Source: Planctomycetota bacterium
GTDB taxonomy: Bacteria; Planctomycetota; UBA1135
Assembly: GCA_026421205.1 (NCBI GenBank)
Contig: JAPKBM010000012.1
Location: 1-51,995, forward strand
Length of the DNA stretch: 51,995 nucleotides
Direction of reading: 5' to 3'
Numbering within the stretch: the stretch's first letter is position 1; the number at the start of each line of letters is the position of its first letter. Below, piece after piece: positions 2,838 through 51,995 of this stretch. The notes beneath the pieces are model-generated. The model had not been told where the DNA came from. It saw only the letters and a program-made list of their open reading frames with translations, and made no database searches. The translations under genes and the position numbers were made by a program.

Positions 2838-5800
2838 CTACTTCCGACGTGTCGCCCAAAAAGTTCCACCCAGTAAATGCCGGCGGAAGAGATCGGAGGC
2901 CCACACTTCGGGGCGATGTCCCAAGGACGTGTAAAACACCCGGCCTTTGCCTTCTTTGCGGGTCCAGCTGATTGGGAAGTCGCCATCGGGGTGATTGAGA
3001 GACAATAAAACTTGGCCCACCTTGTCTCGGCTCCAGTCTTTGAAGACATAAATCTCATCGGCAATGGAAAACGGATTGCCCAAACTCTGCGTGGCGGGGT
3101 GCTTTTCATTCTCCACATTCACAGACACCTCTTCATTCCATGGGTGTCGCTCAAAGTAGCCGCCCAGCATGTCTCCATACTCCGGCCAATCATAAAAAGT
3201 ATCCGTGGCGCAGTGAGCACCAAGAAAGGCGCCACCCTCTCGAATAAACTTCATGAGATTTTTCTTTCCTTCGTCGCCAATGGGGGGGCTTCCCGTGGTG
3301 TAAAAGAAGACCGCATCAAAACTTTGAAGGCCATCGGGTTTAGCAAAGCGCGTGGAATCACGATCCACCACCACTTCTAATCCATCCTCCGCTCCAGCCC
3401 AATCTTGCCAAGTGGACTCCACTAAAGAAAGCCCGCCGTCCCCTTCTTTGGCAACCGGATGCACCCAACCCCCGGAATGCACATACACCAAAACCTTGGC
3501 TGGCTTACGCCGGCTTTCCAAATAAACCACAAGGTCATCCACGTCTTGCGCCGACAAGAGTTCGCCAAAATTACTGGGCATGGCCGACACTTTCATGACC
3601 TTGCCATCGGCATCTTTGATTTCAAAGCCTTTGGCAATGGTTTTGGCTGGTTCCAAAATGCCCTCTCTGATTTTCTTCGTATTTAAGAGTCCGCCGATAT
3701 GATTGAGGTCCGGCCCAATCTCAGGAAGATTTTCACTGCGTTGTCCTTCCATGTCATGACAGCGCAAGCAACTCGCCGAAGGATTCTCAAAGAAAACTTT
3801 GCGCCCGCGGTCCACTGCAGTGAGCACTTCATTTTCCAAAAATGGGGCAATCTTTTCTTGGTAAACCGACGCCTCGCGCTTCGGGAAACGGCGAGACTGA
3901 TTCAGCAGCGCATCAAACTCTTTCGAATTTCCCCAATGCCGAAGAAGGTCGATAGCCTCTTTACGAAGAGCGTCTTCAGCACCCCACTCCTGCACGGCCA
4001 TCCACAAGGCCTCTTCATGCGTCGCATTCCCTACGCGGTTTGCCGCATGCATGGCGCGGCGTTGATGGGCCGAAGTTCGTGTGCCCCAACCATTTTGCAT
4101 CTCCGTCAAAGAAAACAATGTGTCCGCTAAGGCGGGGAGGGCGTCAGTGATGTCACGGTCATAAATGGCAATGGCCGCCTCCGCTGCAACGAGTGGATCT
4201 GCATCCTTCAAAAACCCGGCCAGCCGCGGCGACTCCAAGTGCCGTAACGCAAGCACGGCCCCCAAGCGAACGGCGGGGGAGGCGTGCGAGGCCAACTTCT
4301 CCAACTGTGCCGGCTGTTGCGTTGTTTTTGCCAAAGCCCATGCGGCGGCATGGCGTATCCATCGATCCCCATCATTTTTATCGAGCAAAGAAATCAAAGA
4401 CGCTAAAGTGTTTCCACCTAGATCATTTTTTATTTTTCCGATCGATATCGTGGCGAAGTAACGCACGCGCAAATTTTCATCTTCCATTAAATCCAATAGC
4501 GGAGCCAAGGCCCAAATCAAATCGGCACTGCCCAAAACTTTGGCTGTCTGTGCGCGCACTTCGGAATCTGTATCTTCCAATAACGCCACCATTTTTGAAT
4601 CTGGTCCCAACTGGCCCAGCCCCCAAATCCCATGCAAACGCTTCATGCGAGCTAAGTAGGCGTCGGCGGGCGGACTTTCCCCAAAAGCGGCACGGCGCAG
4701 TGCATCGTGATTTCCCGCTTTCACTAAAGCAAACTGCGCCTGAAGGCGTTGCCGTCGGTCGGGGTGATCTAGGGATGCGGGGATGACCGCAATGGAAGCC
4801 GTTGCATCTTGCGCGGTTGCAGAATCATCTTGGAAAGATCCCGTCCACAGCCGACCTTTTCCGGCACCATACCAGCCTTCTACCCAATCACTGACCATCA
4901 TTTTCCCATCGGGTAGAAAATCAACATCCGTTGCCAGAATGCTCCACCAAAATTCCTCTTGGTTTTCTAATTCGAAGCCAGCGCCTTTTACTTTTGGAGT
5001 CAGCCGTAAAATTCCGCTCCAATCCGCACCGCCTCGGAAGTCTGCTAAAAATAAATCATTCCGATACTCCTCCTTCAGCCCAATTCCCGGGTAAGCCGCA
5101 ATCCCTGACGGTCCAGCGCCGACATTGGCGATAGGTGCGTTCAAGAATGCGGGCTGCCCCGCGAATGGAGGCTTCCACCAACCCTCTGGCATCCAAGGGC
5201 CACGGTCGGGGAGGTACTGAAAGTTCATGCTCCAACCGCAATCTCCACCTTCCAAGACATAAACCAAACGCGCTTGATCTCCCGCATCACAATTATTATC
5301 CCCCGTCCACAAATTACCGAAGTCATCAAAGCACAACTCCTGCGGGTTGCGCAACCCGCTCGCAAAAACTTCTAATGCACTGCCGTCAAGATTGCAGCGA
5401 AACACCGCACCCCGACCTGGATCCTTTAACACTACTCCTTCCTGGGTCGTCACGTTGTAGCCGCGGTCCCCAATCGAAAAGTACAACTTCCCGTCCGGCC
5501 CCACAATCAAACCATGCATATCATGCCCACGCAAGGCCACGCGCACGCCATAACCATGGTGCAAGGACTCCCGCTTGTCCGCTTCGCCGTCGCCGTCGGT
5601 ATCTTCCAGACGCCATAACTCTGGGATGCAGGCGTACCACGCGGTATCTCCTTGGACCAAAATTCCGGCACCGGTGCCATCCAAAAGCGCACTGAATCCA
5701 TCCGCAAAAATCCTAGATTCATCTGCTTGACCATTGCCATCCGTATCCTTCAGCCAAGTAATTCGTTCTTGTTTCCATGCCCAACTTTGCGCATATTCTG

Positions 5801-46799: not shown

Positions 46800-48585
46800 A
46801 GACTTCGGATATTTTGAGCGGGTATTGGCCCACTTTAGCCTGCTTCAAGTCATCAAAGACTTCTTGTGGCATGCCTTCAGGAAGATCTACGGTCGAGAAG
46901 CTTGGGAAAATCTCAATATGGCCGATGTGCTTGCCATTGAGTCCAGCGGCCTTCGTGATGGTGGCCACAATGGAAGCAGGCCTTGCGTGTTCCTGATAGC
47001 CGACTTCCAAGCGGTAACGTATCATCCCTTTTTCTTTGGTTTGTGTGACCTTTTCATCTTTTTTGCGCTCCCGGCCTGGCTTCATCGGGCGTTTCCCGTC
47101 ACGGCGATCCCCGCTGCGGTCCCCACGTTCTCCGTCACGGCGATCCCTGCTGCGGTCTCCACGTTCTCCGTCACGGCGACTCCTGCTGCGGTCCCCACGT
47201 TCCCCGTGCCGTTCTTCGCGCTCTCTGCGCTTTCCGCTTTGAACAAATTCCTCTGCCGCAAATTCTTCTTTCTTGGAAACCAAGAGCGACTTTCCACCTT
47301 GTGCTAAATGCGCTAGTGCTGCAGCTACTTCTGTAGGCTCTAGTTCAGGGTGTTCGGTGAGGTAAGAATCAATAAGGCGGGTGTGAAAGTTCAGGCCACC
47401 TTCTTCAATCGTCTGAGTGATTTTTTCTTTAAATTTGTCAATCCGCAACGCATTGACCTGATCCGTTGTGGGCATCACCATGGGTCTAATGGTCGCTTTG
47501 GTGACGCGCTCTAACAGGTTGAGCAATCGTTTTTCCCTTGGTGTAACAAACAAGATTGCTTCTCCTGTAGAGCCCGCACGCCCCGTTCGGCCAATGCGGT
47601 GCACATAAGATTCGGGATCCGTTGGTGCATCAAAGTTTACAACATGGCTAATCCGGCTTACGTCCAGCCCACGTGCTGCCACGTCGGTGGCCACAATGAT
47701 GTCGATACCACCATTTTTGAGCCGTTGCACAATTTTTTCCCGTTGCGCTTGGACGATGTCTCCATTCAAGGCAGCTGCATTTAGCCCGCGCGCCTCCAGT
47801 TGTTCGGCAACAATGGCGGAAGAGATTTTTGTTCGCACAAAAACCAAAACAGCATCCGTTTCTTCTAGTTCAATGATTCTAGTCAGCGCATCAATTTTCC
47901 GACGCCCACTAATGACTTGAAAACGCTGATTGATGGTGTCGGCGGTGGCTTGCTTTGCCTTGATTTTAGCTTCAGCCGGATTATTTAAATACTTAGTAGC
48001 AATCCGTTTGATTTCCGCCGGCATCGTGGCTGAGAACAGAGCAATTTGACGTTTTTCGGGAGCCTGTTCCAGGACCCAATTTACATCTTCAATGAAACCC
48101 ATTCTGAGCATTTCATCGGCTTCATCTAAAACCAAACACTTCAGGTGATTGAGTTTCAAACTGCCACGGCGAATGTGGTCACAGACACGGCCGGGTGTGC
48201 CGACGACGACGTGCACCCCTCTTTTTAAAGGCTTGAGTTGATGGTGATAGCCTTGTCCTCCATAAATTGGGAGAACATGAAAGCCCTTAATGGAACGCGC
48301 ATATTTCTGGAAGGACTCGGCTACTTGAATCGCCAACTCCCGCGTGGGTGCCAAGACAAGAACCTGCGGAGAACATTCTTCTATGTTCAAGCGCGCCAAA
48401 AGGGGCAATGCAAAGGCCGCGGTTTTTCCGGTGCCTGTTTGCGCTTGGCCGATGATGTCTCGGCCGTCTAATAGGAAGGGGATGGCTTCGGCCTGAATAG
48501 GCGAAGGGATTTCATAGCCAAATTTGGCGAGAGACTGCACCATTTCTGGTGGCAATCCGAGGTCTTCAAACTTGAGGTCGGTCAT
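46798..48585 (-). CDS. deaD: DEAD-box ATP-dependent RNA helicase
   Basis: The protein has 595 residues. Motifs: GFEIPSPIQ-like Q motif (FGYEIPSPIQAEAIP), AQTGTGKTAA (I), PTRELAIQVA (Ia), TPGRVCD (Ib), LDEADEML (II), FSATMPAEI (III), FVRTKISSAIVAEQL (IV), VATDVAARGLDVSRI (V), YVHRIGRTGRAG (VI). A linker with a 12-residue Arg/Asp/Gly repeat (RRDGERGDRSRD x3) precedes a DbpA-type RNA-binding domain at the C-terminus (IRYRLEVGYQEHARP ... GHIEIFPSFSTVDLP). This matches DeaD/CsdA-type helicases in ribosome assembly and cold growth. The start overlaps the end of the following gene on the same strand by 20 bases. Confidence 0.93.
   Translation of the reverse strand: MTDLKFEDLGLPPEMVQSLAKFGYEIPSPIQAEAIPFLLDGRDIIGQAQTGTGKTAAFALPLLARLNIEECSPQVLVLAPTRELAIQVAESFQKYARSIKGFHVLPIYGGQGYHHQLKPLKRGVHVVVGTPGRVCDHIRRGSLKLNHLKCLVLDEADEMLRMGFIEDVNWVLEQAPEKRQIALFSATMPAEIKRIATKYLNNPAEAKIKAKQATADTINQRFQVISGRRKIDALTRIIELEETDAVLVFVRTKISSAIVAEQLEARGLNAAALNGDIVQAQREKIVQRLKNGGIDIIVATDVAARGLDVSRISHVVNFDAPTDPESYVHRIGRTGRAGSTGEAILFVTPREKRLLNLLERVTKATIRPMVMPTTDQVNALRIDKFKEKITQTIEEGGLNFHTRLIDSYLTEHPELEPTEVAAALAHLAQGGKSLLVSKKEEFAAEEFVQSGKRREREERHGERGDRSRSRRDGERGDRSRDRRDGERGDRSGDRRDGKRPMKPGRERKKDEKVTQTKEKGMIRYRLEVGYQEHARPASIVATITKAAGLNGKHIGHIEIFPSFSTVDLPEGMPQEVFDDLKQAKVGQYPLKISEV
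47096..47203 (+). repeat. Three 36-bp tandem repeats in the helicase linker
   Basis: The unit starting CCGTCACGGCGA occurs at 47096, 47132 and 47168, with the third copy slightly diverged, and encodes the RGD-type linker repeats on the minus strand. Being in frame, it can change copy number without breaking the gene. Confidence 0.85.
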
Positions 48586-49669
48586 GATGCGAAGGAAGGG
48601 TCTGGTGTTGAACGGCGCCGATTTTGAGAAGTCTTTGGGTAAGGGCAGATCCCAGCGCGCCTGAAGGCGTCAAAACGCCACCTGCTTTGGCTTCGCCGGC
48701 GGCCAAGGCCAAGCCGGTCTGCACAAGGCAGCGGACGGTAATGAGGTTGCTGGGGTCGCCCGTCCAATTCCAACGGTGGACAGCGAGTGGTTGTTCAAGG
48801 GAACCCGCAAGGAGAGTTAGGTCGGCGAAACCTTCTTCGATTTTTTTCTTAGAAGGACCTTGGCCGGGCTTCGGCCCGAAAAGACGCAACAGCTTTCGTC
48901 CAAACGGAGAGGCCAACATGCGGGTAGACAGCCTCAGAAGACCCGACATTCTACTCGCTTGGCCACGAGTGCGTACGAGAAGGAATTCTTGGTAGGGGAA
49001 ATCGCTTTGCGAGCGTGCCACGACGTCTTCGTTGACGGGGGCCATCAAGAATGGAGCGGCCCATCTTTTCAGGTAAGGGATGGCAAAAGGAGAAGGCGGC
49101 GCAGGGGCAGAGAGAGTTTGCTTTTCGGCCAGTGCAAGTCCGGAGTGGAGGGTGCCACCATTCAGCCCGCCTTTGATTCTGAAAAGCCCGTAGAGCTTGC
49201 AGGGCCGGGAAAGGGCCTGTCTCATGCTGTGCACTGCAAGGTCCGAGGGCACGGAGTCAAAGCCCGAAGACGGAATAAGAGTTATTTTCTTTTGAACGCA
49301 GATTTCGTGATGCTGTTGAATGATTTGATGAATCCAGGGGAGCTCACCGGAAAGGTCGGCGTAGTGTGTTTCATATTTGACACAGGCTTGGACAAGGGGG
49401 GTTCCAAAAACGGAGTAGGGGCCCGCGCACGAAAGAATGACATCGGCACGCGACGCCAAGGATTCCACATCTGAATCTTTGAGACTCTCCGTGACAATGC
49501 CCGGCACTTCGTATTTTTGGGCTAAGGCATTGACTTTTTCCGACGTCCGCCCGGAGACGGCCCACCGCAATCCTTTGGGCGCATTGCGATGGAGCTCTTC
49601 GGCGGCTAAGCGGCCGGTGAAACCCGTGGCTCCGTGGAGGATGAGATGGAATTCTCGACTGTGTTTCAT
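48566..49669 (-). CDS. Saccharopine dehydrogenase-like NAD(P)-binding reductase (trans-acting enoyl reductase type)
   Basis: The protein has 367 residues. The Rossmann motif LILHGATGFTGRLAAEEL and the downstream LRWAVSGRTSEKVNAL and CAGPYSVFGTPLVQACVKYETHYADLSGE blocks match saccharopine dehydrogenase-like proteins, especially the mycobacterial-type trans-acting enoyl reductases. A central block, IPSSGFDSVPSDLAVHSM, is also typical. The family acts on lipid or polyketide substrates or in amino acid metabolism. It runs upstream of the helicase gene on the same strand, overlapping by 20 bases. Substrate unknown. Confidence 0.83.
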   Translation of the reverse strand: MKHSREFHLILHGATGFTGRLAAEELHRNAPKGLRWAVSGRTSEKVNALAQKYEVPGIVTESLKDSDVESLASRADVILSCAGPYSVFGTPLVQACVKYETHYADLSGELPWIHQIIQQHHEICVQKKITLIPSSGFDSVPSDLAVHSMRQALSRPCKLYGLFRIKGGLNGGTLHSGLALAEKQTLSAPAPPSPFAIPYLKRWAAPFLMAPVNEDVVARSQSDFPYQEFLLVRTRGQASRMSGLLRLSTRMLASPFGRKLLRLFGPKPGQGPSKKKIEEGFADLTLLAGSLEQPLAVHRWNWTGDPSNLITVRCLVQTGLALAAGEAKAGGVLTPSGALGSALTQRLLKIGAVQHQTLPSHHDRPQV

Positions 49670-49706
49670 GGTGTACTTCTATGGAAGAGATGAACTAGGC
49701 GAAGGC

Positions 49707-49782
49707 GCGGCTGTAGCTCAGTTCGTAGAGCATTCGCTTCTTAAACCAAAGGTCGCAAGTTCGAATCGCGTCGGGGACGCCC
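49707..49782 (+). pseudogene. Decayed tRNA-Lys(CTT)-like sequence
   Basis: The arrangement has exact tRNA geometry: D arm GCTC/GAGC (49716-49731), anticodon loop TTCTTAA with anticodon CTT (49740-49742), a five-base variable loop, and T loop TTCGAAT (49760-49766). The conserved T8, A14 and TTC are kept. The acceptor halves GCGGCTG and CGGGGAC pair at only one or two positions, the anticodon stem has two mismatches, the T stem has two, and one G of the GG pair in the D loop is C. Seven T follow at 49783. A working tRNA would need more pairing, so it is called a remnant. Confidence 0.55.
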
Positions 49783-49861
49783 TTTTTTTCGTCGTTGATG
49801 GACTGGCGAAATAACCGACTTTTGAATGTGGAGGTCCAGCGTGCTTTATCTTACACCGGTC
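49783..49861. other. Short gap between tRNA remnant and SMP-30 gene
   Basis: Apart from the T-run at 49783-49789, which may be the terminator relic of the tRNA, no promoter, repeat or ORF of note is seen here. This is the junction into the segment that looks accessory. Confidence 0.4.
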
Positions 49862-50803
49862 CTATCGAAGTATGTTTCCCGAGTTCGCGAGCTCAACCGA
49901 GTAAAGCGATGTGCGCGCTGTAATAAAAAGGGTCTTGTAGTCGTCGCCTCCAAAGCAGCAATTACTTGGCGACTCAGGGACTTTAATCGTCCCGATGATA
50001 TTCCCGTCCGGTGAGAACACCGTGATTCCCGCGCGCGCAGTGGTGTAGATGTTCCCTAATACATCGACACACATCCCATCACAGAAGCCCTCTACCTTCC
50101 AGACGGGTTCTAGGTTTAACGTTCCATCAGTCTTCACCTGATAGGCAGCGATCGTCGCCGGTAATTCGCGGAGAGGCTCGTCCGGATGCCAGGTACCGCC
50201 CGTATCCGCGATGTAGATGTGTCGCTCATCAGGCGAGAAGGCTATGCCGTTCGGCATGATACCTTTCAAGAGGACTGTGACTTTCTTCGTCTTCGGGTCC
50301 AAGCGAAAGACATAGTTTTCTGGTTGTTCTTTTCCCTTGCGGTAATCTGGCAAGCCCCACGGTGGATCCGTGAACCAGAGCGTTCCGTCAGACTTGACGG
50401 CGACATCATTCGGTGAGTTGAGGCGCTTCCCTTCAAAGCTGTCACAGAGGACCGTGATATCTCCGTCTTTCTCTGTGCGCACGATGTCCCGCGCGCCGTG
50501 CCGACAGGTGAGCAACCTTCCCTCTCTATCGAGCAGGTTCCCGTTCGGGTTCGGGCTCTTCCTGAAGAGTTTGAGGTCGGCCTCCTTGCTCCACTCCATG
50601 AGCTTTGCACTTGGGATGTCGCTGAAGATGAGCGTCTTTTCCTTGGGTAACCAGACCGGTCCCTCCGTGAACATCATGTCGCCCGCGAGCTTCACAACAG
50701 CGGCCTCAGGGGTCATCAGATCTTGGAGCGTAGTAGCCTCAATCTTCCCATTTGAACACCCAGGAAGCAAAGACAGAGTAACGAGAATCCGGATGAGTTT
50801 CAT
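49862..50803 (-). CDS. SMP-30/gluconolactonase/LRE-family lipoprotein
   Basis: The protein has 313 residues from the ATG at 50803; a TTG six bases earlier is less likely. The N-terminus MKLIRILVTLSLLPGCSNG is a lipoprotein signal with lipobox LPGC. The beta-propeller shows MMFTEGPVWLPKEKTLIFSDI (metal-ligand Glu), RLNSPNDVAVKSDGTLWFTDPPWG (Asn/Asp), and MPNGIAFSPDERHIYIADTG (Asn, Asp). These enzymes hydrolyse aldonolactones such as gluconolactone using calcium or zinc. The periplasmic lipoprotein form often works beside PQQ glucose dehydrogenases. Codon choice seems different from the genes to the left, though not enough to be certain. Confidence 0.9.
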   Translation of the reverse strand: MKLIRILVTLSLLPGCSNGKIEATTLQDLMTPEAAVVKLAGDMMFTEGPVWLPKEKTLIFSDIPSAKLMEWSKEADLKLFRKSPNPNGNLLDREGRLLTCRHGARDIVRTEKDGDITVLCDSFEGKRLNSPNDVAVKSDGTLWFTDPPWGLPDYRKGKEQPENYVFRLDPKTKKVTVLLKGIMPNGIAFSPDERHIYIADTGGTWHPDEPLRELPATIAAYQVKTDGTLNLEPVWKVEGFCDGMCVDVLGNIYTTARAGITVFSPDGNIIGTIKVPESPSNCCFGGDDYKTLFITARTSLYSVELANSGNILR

Positions 50804-50998
50804 AGCCAAGACATCCTACTCATTTAGACGGCCCCTTGCGAAGAGAATCGGATACAAGCTCAGAGTAACCGAATGGAGCTTTCAGAGAGTTGGATCGCTC
50901 TGTTCTGTGTTGGCCCCCCTCAAAATCTAAGTGGCTGACAGCAAGAGGACTAGGAATAAAATTACGATCAAAAGCAGGGTTTTGTATCATTCCATTTA
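50804..50998. other. Intergenic region before the esterase gene
   Basis: A 195-base divergent gap between the SMP-30 and esterase genes. It is richer in A and T toward 50998 and should contain promoters for both genes. A TATCAT at about 50986 is the only -10-like hexamer noticed; there is no good -35. No repeat or RNA structure was seen. Confidence 0.3.
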
Positions 50999-51995
50999 AT
51001 GAAAATAAAGGCTATTTATATTGCAGCATTACTCGTTTTCTGCACCCAAACACTCTCCGCGGCACAATCTAGCAAGCTTGACGAGGAAGACACAAAGACC
51101 TTAAGGGTTTTCATTTTTGCGGGTCAATCAAACATGGTTGGCACACACTCTGACGCGAGGGAAATCGATAATTTTTCGCCGTTTGTTGGTACTGGAGATG
51201 AGCAACCAAAGATTAGATATTCATACGCGATTGGTCGAGAAACGATGCACCGGTCAAATGGCTGGTCTACCCTTCAGCCTGTAAATAATGTTGTCGGGCC
51301 AGAGCTTAGCTTCGGGAAAATAGTTAGTAATCAAATAAAAGCTCCAATAGCTATTATTAAATGTGCTTCTGGCGGAACGACACTTGGCAGTGATTGGAAT
51401 CCAGATGATCCCGTCGGTTTCAAGCTGTATCCACTTGCCCTTAAGCTTGTAAATGATGCATTGCAAAGTCTAAGGGCAAAGAAAATCAAATATCGTATTG
51501 AGGGGTTCTTCTGGCATCAAGGTGAAAACGATATGTTTAATGAAGTCTATAGGGCTAGATACGCCGCTAATTTAAAGCATTTTATTGAGAAATGGCGTGA
51601 TGATTTGAATTCACCAAATCTACCTTTCTACATCGGTGAATTAAGCTGTAAAACTGTTTGGGGGATGGATAATCGCGACAACATGTATGCTATTAGTGAG
51701 GCGCAAAAAGAAGTCTGCCGTGAAGATGCTATGGCAACTTATATACCTACCAACCATGTTGGAGTCCTCACGGAAAGCTCGGATGGCCTTCACTACCATT
51801 ACGGAACTCTTGGTCAGCTTGAACACGGTCATAATTATGCAACGGAATACCTCCGCTCTGTGGGGAAGGAAAAGGTCAGGGATCGAAATTATAAGAAATG
51901 GCCTTTCAAAAAAGGCAGCGTCGTCAAACTTTTTGTTTTAGCTGGCCATCGGAATATGGAAGGGGAGATATCATTCACCAATGATTTGAAAAAAA
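50999..51995 (+). CDS. Sialate O-acetylesterase (SASA)-family SGNH hydrolase, C-terminus cut by window edge
   Basis: About 332 codons are present from the ATG at 50999 and the frame is open to the end. A Sec signal (MKIKAIYIAALLVFCTQTLSAA) precedes the SASA domain: RVFIFAGQSNMVG (nucleophile Ser), FFWHQGENDM and SDGLHYHY (catalytic Asp/His). The family removes acetyl groups from sugars and plant or algal polymers. Near residue 315 a second domain seems to begin: KLFVLAGHRNMEGE repeats the first motif, but the nucleophile position is Arg, so this copy may be inactive. Codon use is visibly A/T-richer than in the rest of the window, suggesting recent acquisition. Confidence 0.85.
   Translation, partial: MKIKAIYIAALLVFCTQTLSAAQSSKLDEEDTKTLRVFIFAGQSNMVGTHSDAREIDNFSPFVGTGDEQPKIRYSYAIGRETMHRSNGWSTLQPVNNVVGPELSFGKIVSNQIKAPIAIIKCASGGTTLGSDWNPDDPVGFKLYPLALKLVNDALQSLRAKKIKYRIEGFFWHQGENDMFNEVYRARYAANLKHFIEKWRDDLNSPNLPFYIGELSCKTVWGMDNRDNMYAISEAQKEVCREDAMATYIPTNHVGVLTESSDGLHYHYGTLGQLEHGHNYATEYLRSVGKEKVRDRNYKKWPFKKGSVVKLFVLAGHRNMEGEISFTNDLKK

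Follow-up and report, generated by a model that had tools for sequence, protein, structure and literature searches.

The right end of a 51,995-nucleotide contig of a Planctomycetota bacterium carries a tRNA-shaped sequence with damaged stems, raising the question of whether it is the scar of an element that once integrated into the chromosome, as proposed in a first-pass annotation, or a tRNA gene with another history. The window analysed here is the whole contig (C55), which belongs to an assembly of 2.15 Mb (96 contigs, 88% complete).

A dead tRNA gene near the contig end

The 76-base tRNA-shaped sequence of the first-pass annotation is located at positions 49707-49782 (+ strand). A cmscan of the region 49500-51995 aligns it with the tRNA family RF00005 over the full length of the model (49707-49779, 27.8 bits, E 0.0049), below the Rfam gathering score of 29, and detects no Rfam match at the gathering threshold in this region. 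ARAGORN called no tRNA in the window. The high-scoring functional tRNA that the first-pass annotation regarded as evidence against its reading is therefore absent. The search for tRNAs in the whole genome at E<=1 gave 41 matches, 38 above the cut-off and three below it, the latter corresponding to the window remnant and to two fragments of tRNA-Arg(TCT) (C13:526-573 and C95:16-85). By blastn, the tRNA-Arg(CCT) of the same genome matches the remnant at 81% (E 5.7e-12). Because the covariance match is joined by this blastn match, the likeness to tRNA is not due to chance and the sequence derives from a tRNA gene.

The stem damage reported earlier was confirmed. Non-standard pairs are present in the acceptor stem (3/7), the anticodon stem (2/5) and the T stem (2/5), the D stem having none (0/4). 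Shuffling the sequence does not worsen the fold of the RNA (z +0.83, 162 of 200 shuffles equalling or surpassing it); the intact tRNA-Arg(CCT) and tRNA-Gly(CCC) of this genome have fold z-scores of -3.45 and -4.24, respectively. With 7 of 21 stem pairs non-standard, the sequence lacks the four paired stems of a functional tRNA, and it is a dead, non-working tRNA gene. The anticodon position reads CTT, and a functional tRNA-Lys(CTT) was ruled out by the pairing and the fold. The 3' terminus reads CCC in place of CCA and is followed by seven T, which correspond to the T-run mentioned in the first-pass annotation.

Composition and genes on both sides of the remnant

The different base composition attributed by the first-pass annotation to the DNA beyond 50.8 kb is real, but the break is located at the remnant, only the drop in GC starting at about 50.8 kb; the shift in tetranucleotide and codon usage is already present at the remnant. 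In 800-bp windows, the tetranucleotide z-score passes from -0.13 (49000-49800) to 6.95 (49800-50600), dips to 2.64 between the right-hand genes (50400-51200) and then climbs to 7.75 beyond. The baseline maximum is 2.65 over 120 windows of the first 48.4 kb, which are slightly favoured since they lie inside the 48.5-kb background. A uniform composition across the junction, which would speak against a scar, is thus not observed. Codon usage to the right of the remnant bears this out, the two genes located there scoring below all 39 other ORFs taken as genes and being the most deviant of the 41 compared.

On the left side, the gene at 48566-49669 (- strand) encodes a saccharopine dehydrogenase-like NADP-binding protein (PF03435) whose best relative belongs to the same family (63%); it is present in 14 of the 25 same-family relatives searched. 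The first right-hand gene, at 49862-50809 (- strand), encodes an SMP-30/gluconolactonase-like protein (PF08450; codon usage z -3.1; GC3 0.665). Its best full-length match, 74%, is found in G032, a genome from another family, and the best match among the 18 same-family relatives searched (of 25) is 54%, in G002. A 27-residue SMP-30 fragment at a contig edge of the same-family genome G012 reaches 74%, and matches in named assemblies, whose families may or may not be the same, range from 76 to 83%. The second right-hand gene, at 50999-51995 (+ strand), encodes a SASA-type carbohydrate esterase cut by the contig end (PF03629; GC 42%; codon usage z -3.4). It was found in 7/25 same-family relatives at E<=1e-30, and its three best relatives all belong to the same family (G009 with 80%, then G025 and G021 with 74 and 72%). 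The left-hand gene is only 46% in G018 and G022, which are genus-mates of G009.

In composition, and in that sense only, the remnant lies between native and foreign DNA; this composition, together with the patchy relatives of the genes, suggests a lateral origin of the right side. The SMP-30-like gene may be foreign, judging from the 18 of 25 same-family relatives searched. No single foreign source would account for the right side, since the three best relatives of the SASA-like gene are same-family. Because its two genes differ in their nearest relatives, the right side gives the impression of a mosaic that was acquired piecemeal and not as one element.

The remnant was absent beside SMP-30 loci of other genomes, with no blastn match at E<=0.01 in the 80 loci kept of 114 from genome_contigs. 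ARAGORN called tRNAs at two of these 80 loci, about 1.2 kb past the gene in L194 and 91 bp past it in L198 (Gly, 87 nt). The L198 call, at a distance similar to that in the window, is taken as spurious (no Rfam tRNA at this position, poor shape), and an Rfam search of 9 of the 80 loci detected the tRNA of L194 only.

Parentage of the remnant

Over its whole length, the remnant is closest to tRNA-Arg(CCT), with 59/76 identical bases for the gene of the same genome and 60 for one from another family. A different picture emerges when the two parts of the sequence are considered separately. Among the 28 distinct tRNAs of the genome (72-79 nt), tRNA-Gly(CCC) alone is best over bases 1-25 (49707-49731; 23/25, and 24/25 in G032), and tRNA-Arg(CCT) alone is best over bases 26-76 (49732-49782; 40/51, with 12 consecutive matching bases close to the 3' end). 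With 55 tRNAs fetched from G006 and G032, the isoacceptors Gly(CCC) and Arg(CCT) win again (24 and 38). The 5' acceptor strand, GCGGCTG, is exactly that of some relatives' Gly tRNAs and the 3' acceptor strand, CGGGGAC, exactly that of the genome's own tRNA-Arg(CCT), each strand being whole and the two mutually unable to pair.

The gain in matches obtained by allowing two parents is 4 for the remnant and at most 3 for the own tRNAs scored against those of relatives (28 tRNAs, four with discordant ends). Random decay of own tRNAs, simulated with a free cut point, reached a gain of at least 4 in 19/700 cases; this is the figure to quote, a fixed-cut simulation (3/1120) having used a post hoc cut. 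A panel of 62 tRNAs was partly fetched by similarity to the remnant, the own-genome panel being less biased. Since 19/700 decay simulations do as well with a free cut, the hybrid signal is moderate, and the remnant is likely, though not proven, to be a Gly/Arg hybrid.

The hybrid reading gains weight from the left-hand gene, because a tRNA-Gly(CCC) lies divergently upstream of it in 4 of 14 relatives, at about 158 bp in G005, 2236 bp in G006, 2441 bp in G012 and 3287 bp in G017. The strand and place of the remnant are those of the G005 tRNA-Gly(CCC) relative to the dehydrogenase-like gene. The other 10 of the 14 have no tRNA near this gene, over several kb in six of them and within 1.5 kb in four (G002, G008, G018 and G022, with flanks of at most 1.5 kb), the wider flanks having been chosen partly since tRNA hits near the gene were already known. 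G006 and the window have in common the order of the dehydrogenase-like gene, a DEAD-box helicase and a fumarate hydratase-like gene, the last two names being our reading of the sequences. The original tRNA at the site was probably a tRNA-Gly(CCC).

Intact tRNA-Gly(CCC) and tRNA-Arg(CCT) genes are present on contigs C60 and C33, respectively, so that the replacement of the tRNA by another copy, also suggested in the first-pass annotation, may apply. The neighbourhood of the C60 tRNA-Gly(CCC) has no gene family in common with the G006 locus. The tRNA matches of this genome do not include tRNA-Gly(GCC), which is present in relatives and may be in sequence missing from the assembly (88% complete).

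At the level of the order, DNA matches at E<=1e-8 were obtained in 17 of 154 genomes, including the own genome (at most five candidates scored per genome), with no second copy of the remnant among them; at the 12 new loci that were read, the genes are ordinary ones for tRNA-Arg(CCT), Gly(CCC), Thr(CGT) and Asn, without a second hybrid. Exact patterns of the 3' part had no occurrence in genome_contigs (27 bases) or viral_contigs (23 bases). We found no description of a cross-isotype hybrid tRNA in the titles and abstract openings of the papers listed, which does not prove its absence in print.

Other tRNA-Arg fragments in the same genome

Five further fragments, all related to tRNA-Arg(TCT), are present in the genome. 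Three of them are direct 3' fragments on C13 (about 526-573, 2290-2363 and 3210-3241, - strand; the first two also placed at 504-566 and 2276-2338), neighbours being separated by one long ORF, an organization that suggests a cassette-like arrangement on tRNA-derived sites. Another 3' fragment is located at the edge of C95 (16-85, also placed at 35-94), and a 5' fragment, broken after the anticodon stem, at C60:385-421 (- strand). The DNA flanking the intact tRNA-Arg(TCT) of C17 on its 3' side is part of a 166-bp stretch that recurs on C13 (90%), and a 77-bp part of this flank recurs downstream of a tRNA-Met (C81 531-607, 86%). The 77-bp sequence contains TTGTCC repeats, which might, as a guess, have served the integrase of a lost element as arm sites. 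At the thresholds applied, none of these element-like flanks (C13, C17, C81) has any sequence in common with the remnant. The recurrence of tRNA-derived scars in the genome makes the scar reading of the remnant more credible, though unproven.

A probable decayed integration junction

tRNA genes are common sites of recombination for tyrosine integrases: as outlined in PMC4383910, the crossover falls in the anticodon loop or in the region of the T arm, and the integrating element carries a piece of the tRNA. The remnant fits a decayed junction of this kind, with DNA of the ordinary type preceding its 5' end, deviant DNA following its 3' end and an Arg-like sequence from about the anticodon arm onward. 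The remnant is best read as a scar of element integration: we consider it fairly probable that this dead tRNA gene marks the junction between the chromosome with its normal composition, on the left, and DNA acquired laterally, on the right, the junction being most likely the product of one or more tyrosine-integrase elements. We infer both the involvement of an integrase and the order of events: an element, or several in turn, would have recombined at a tRNA gene transcribed divergently from the dehydrogenase-like gene, and its tRNA-Arg(CCT)-like end would have replaced the 3' part of the resident tRNA. The junction tRNA would have been dispensable, since intact copies exist elsewhere in the genome, and would then have decayed.

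The scar claim of the first-pass annotation stands as regards the position of the remnant at a composition break; the rest of an element was not recovered, and the right-hand genes have different relatives. The window, which ends at 51995, 2.2 kb past the remnant, shows neither an integrase nor a partner repeat or far boundary. Contig C55 has no match to the integrase family PF00589, the three matches of the genome being on C90, C44 and C4, and no repeat listed connects the remnant with any other part of 49.0-52.0 kb. A candidate for the intact cognate tRNA at the other end of the island would be the tRNA-Arg(CCT) at the edge of contig C33 (positions 1-78, one base from the end), whose 3' flank is possibly variable or repeated.

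Fragments of tRNA genes left by islands are usually near-identical to the intact gene. The scar reading is weakened by this comparison, because the remnant has only 59/76 bases in common with the intact gene. The tDNA fragments described for Islander (PMC4383910) resemble it in being tRNA-derived sequences at a native/foreign boundary, in having a better kept 3' part and in the inclusion of anticodon-centred crossovers among the kinds listed there; unlike them, the remnant is full-length, strongly decayed and apparently of mixed isotype, and neither integrase nor partner was seen. The tRNA-dependent lysogeny presented in PMC10865867, in which some phages do not rebuild the junction tRNA and cover the loss with a phage tRNA gene, likewise involves a non-functional junction tRNA whose function is covered by another tRNA gene, but that system has an identified phage tRNA, attP and integrase, none of which was seen in the window. 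The non-canonical partial tRNA genes of prokaryotes reported in PMC9897764 are similarly low-scoring tRNA-like sequences adjoining apparent mobile DNA; they differ from the remnant in being partial duplicates for which both parent and element can be identified.

Alternative origins

The main competitor of an integration junction is the decay in place of a redundant tRNA (a duplicate of Gly(CCC) or Arg(CCT)), the odd-style genes having arrived later by homologous recombination without an integrase. Both tRNAs do have intact copies, the whole remnant can be aligned to tRNA-Arg(CCT) and the right-hand genes look like separate arrivals; however, the composition breaks at the remnant, and simulated decay with a free cut reached the two-parent gain of at least 4 in 1/300 cases from Arg(CCT) alone and 9/300 from Gly(CCC) alone, so that we regard this origin as rather unlikely. 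It is improbable that the tRNA gene was brought in by the foreign DNA, from a phage or plasmid, and decayed after its arrival: the strand and place are those of the G005 tRNA-Gly(CCC), the first 25 bases are Gly-like and no remnant accompanies the SMP-30 gene at the 80 loci compared from other genomes. This hypothesis is nevertheless consistent with phage sequences, since the best 10 of 55 matching phage records include five annotated tRNA-Arg, and the lowest E-value among the matches listed is that of Pseudomonas phage PPpW-3 (80% over 70 bases), where ARAGORN identifies a complete unannotated tRNA-Arg(TCT) (L294 2495-2571) about 300 bp from an integrase gene.

A chimeric assembly joining two metagenome tRNA loci could be suspected in a draft genome of 96 contigs whose composition changes at a tRNA remnant. 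A single false join of two intact tRNAs would keep one of two stems, anticodon or T, paired, and both are broken, which makes this explanation very improbable. Finally, a pattern scan revealed a putative terminator-like structure at the 3' end of the remnant (49768-49789, + strand), consisting of a 5-bp hairpin and the seven T, as could be expected from an odd tRNA or small RNA that still functions. Such a function is scarcely credible, with no sigma-70-like promoter in 49400-50000, a fold no better than shuffles and only ordinary tRNAs at the 12 new loci read in the order.

Meaning of the remnant

The entry of mobile DNA at a tRNA gene is an ordinary kind of event, to which a tRNA of mixed parentage would perhaps add a feature, and the main interest of the remnant lies in this possible cross-isotype hybrid. 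The anticodon loops of tRNA-Gly(CCC) and tRNA-Arg(CCT) nearly match (TTCCCAA versus TTCCTAA). In the boldest version of the integration reading, an Arg(CCT)-specific element would have recombined into tRNA-Gly(CCC) at this near-matching loop, giving a dead cross-isotype hybrid in a genome that also harbours a cassette-like region (C13) of single acquired genes between tRNA-Arg fragments; taken as a whole, we hold this scenario to be unlikely. With the remnant, the left limit of a probably acquired region can be placed precisely. It also hints that elements targeting one tRNA isotype are able to insert into, and inactivate, the tRNA gene of another. Scars derived from tRNA-Arg are present several times in this small genome, which may help in finding small integrative elements in this poorly studied group.
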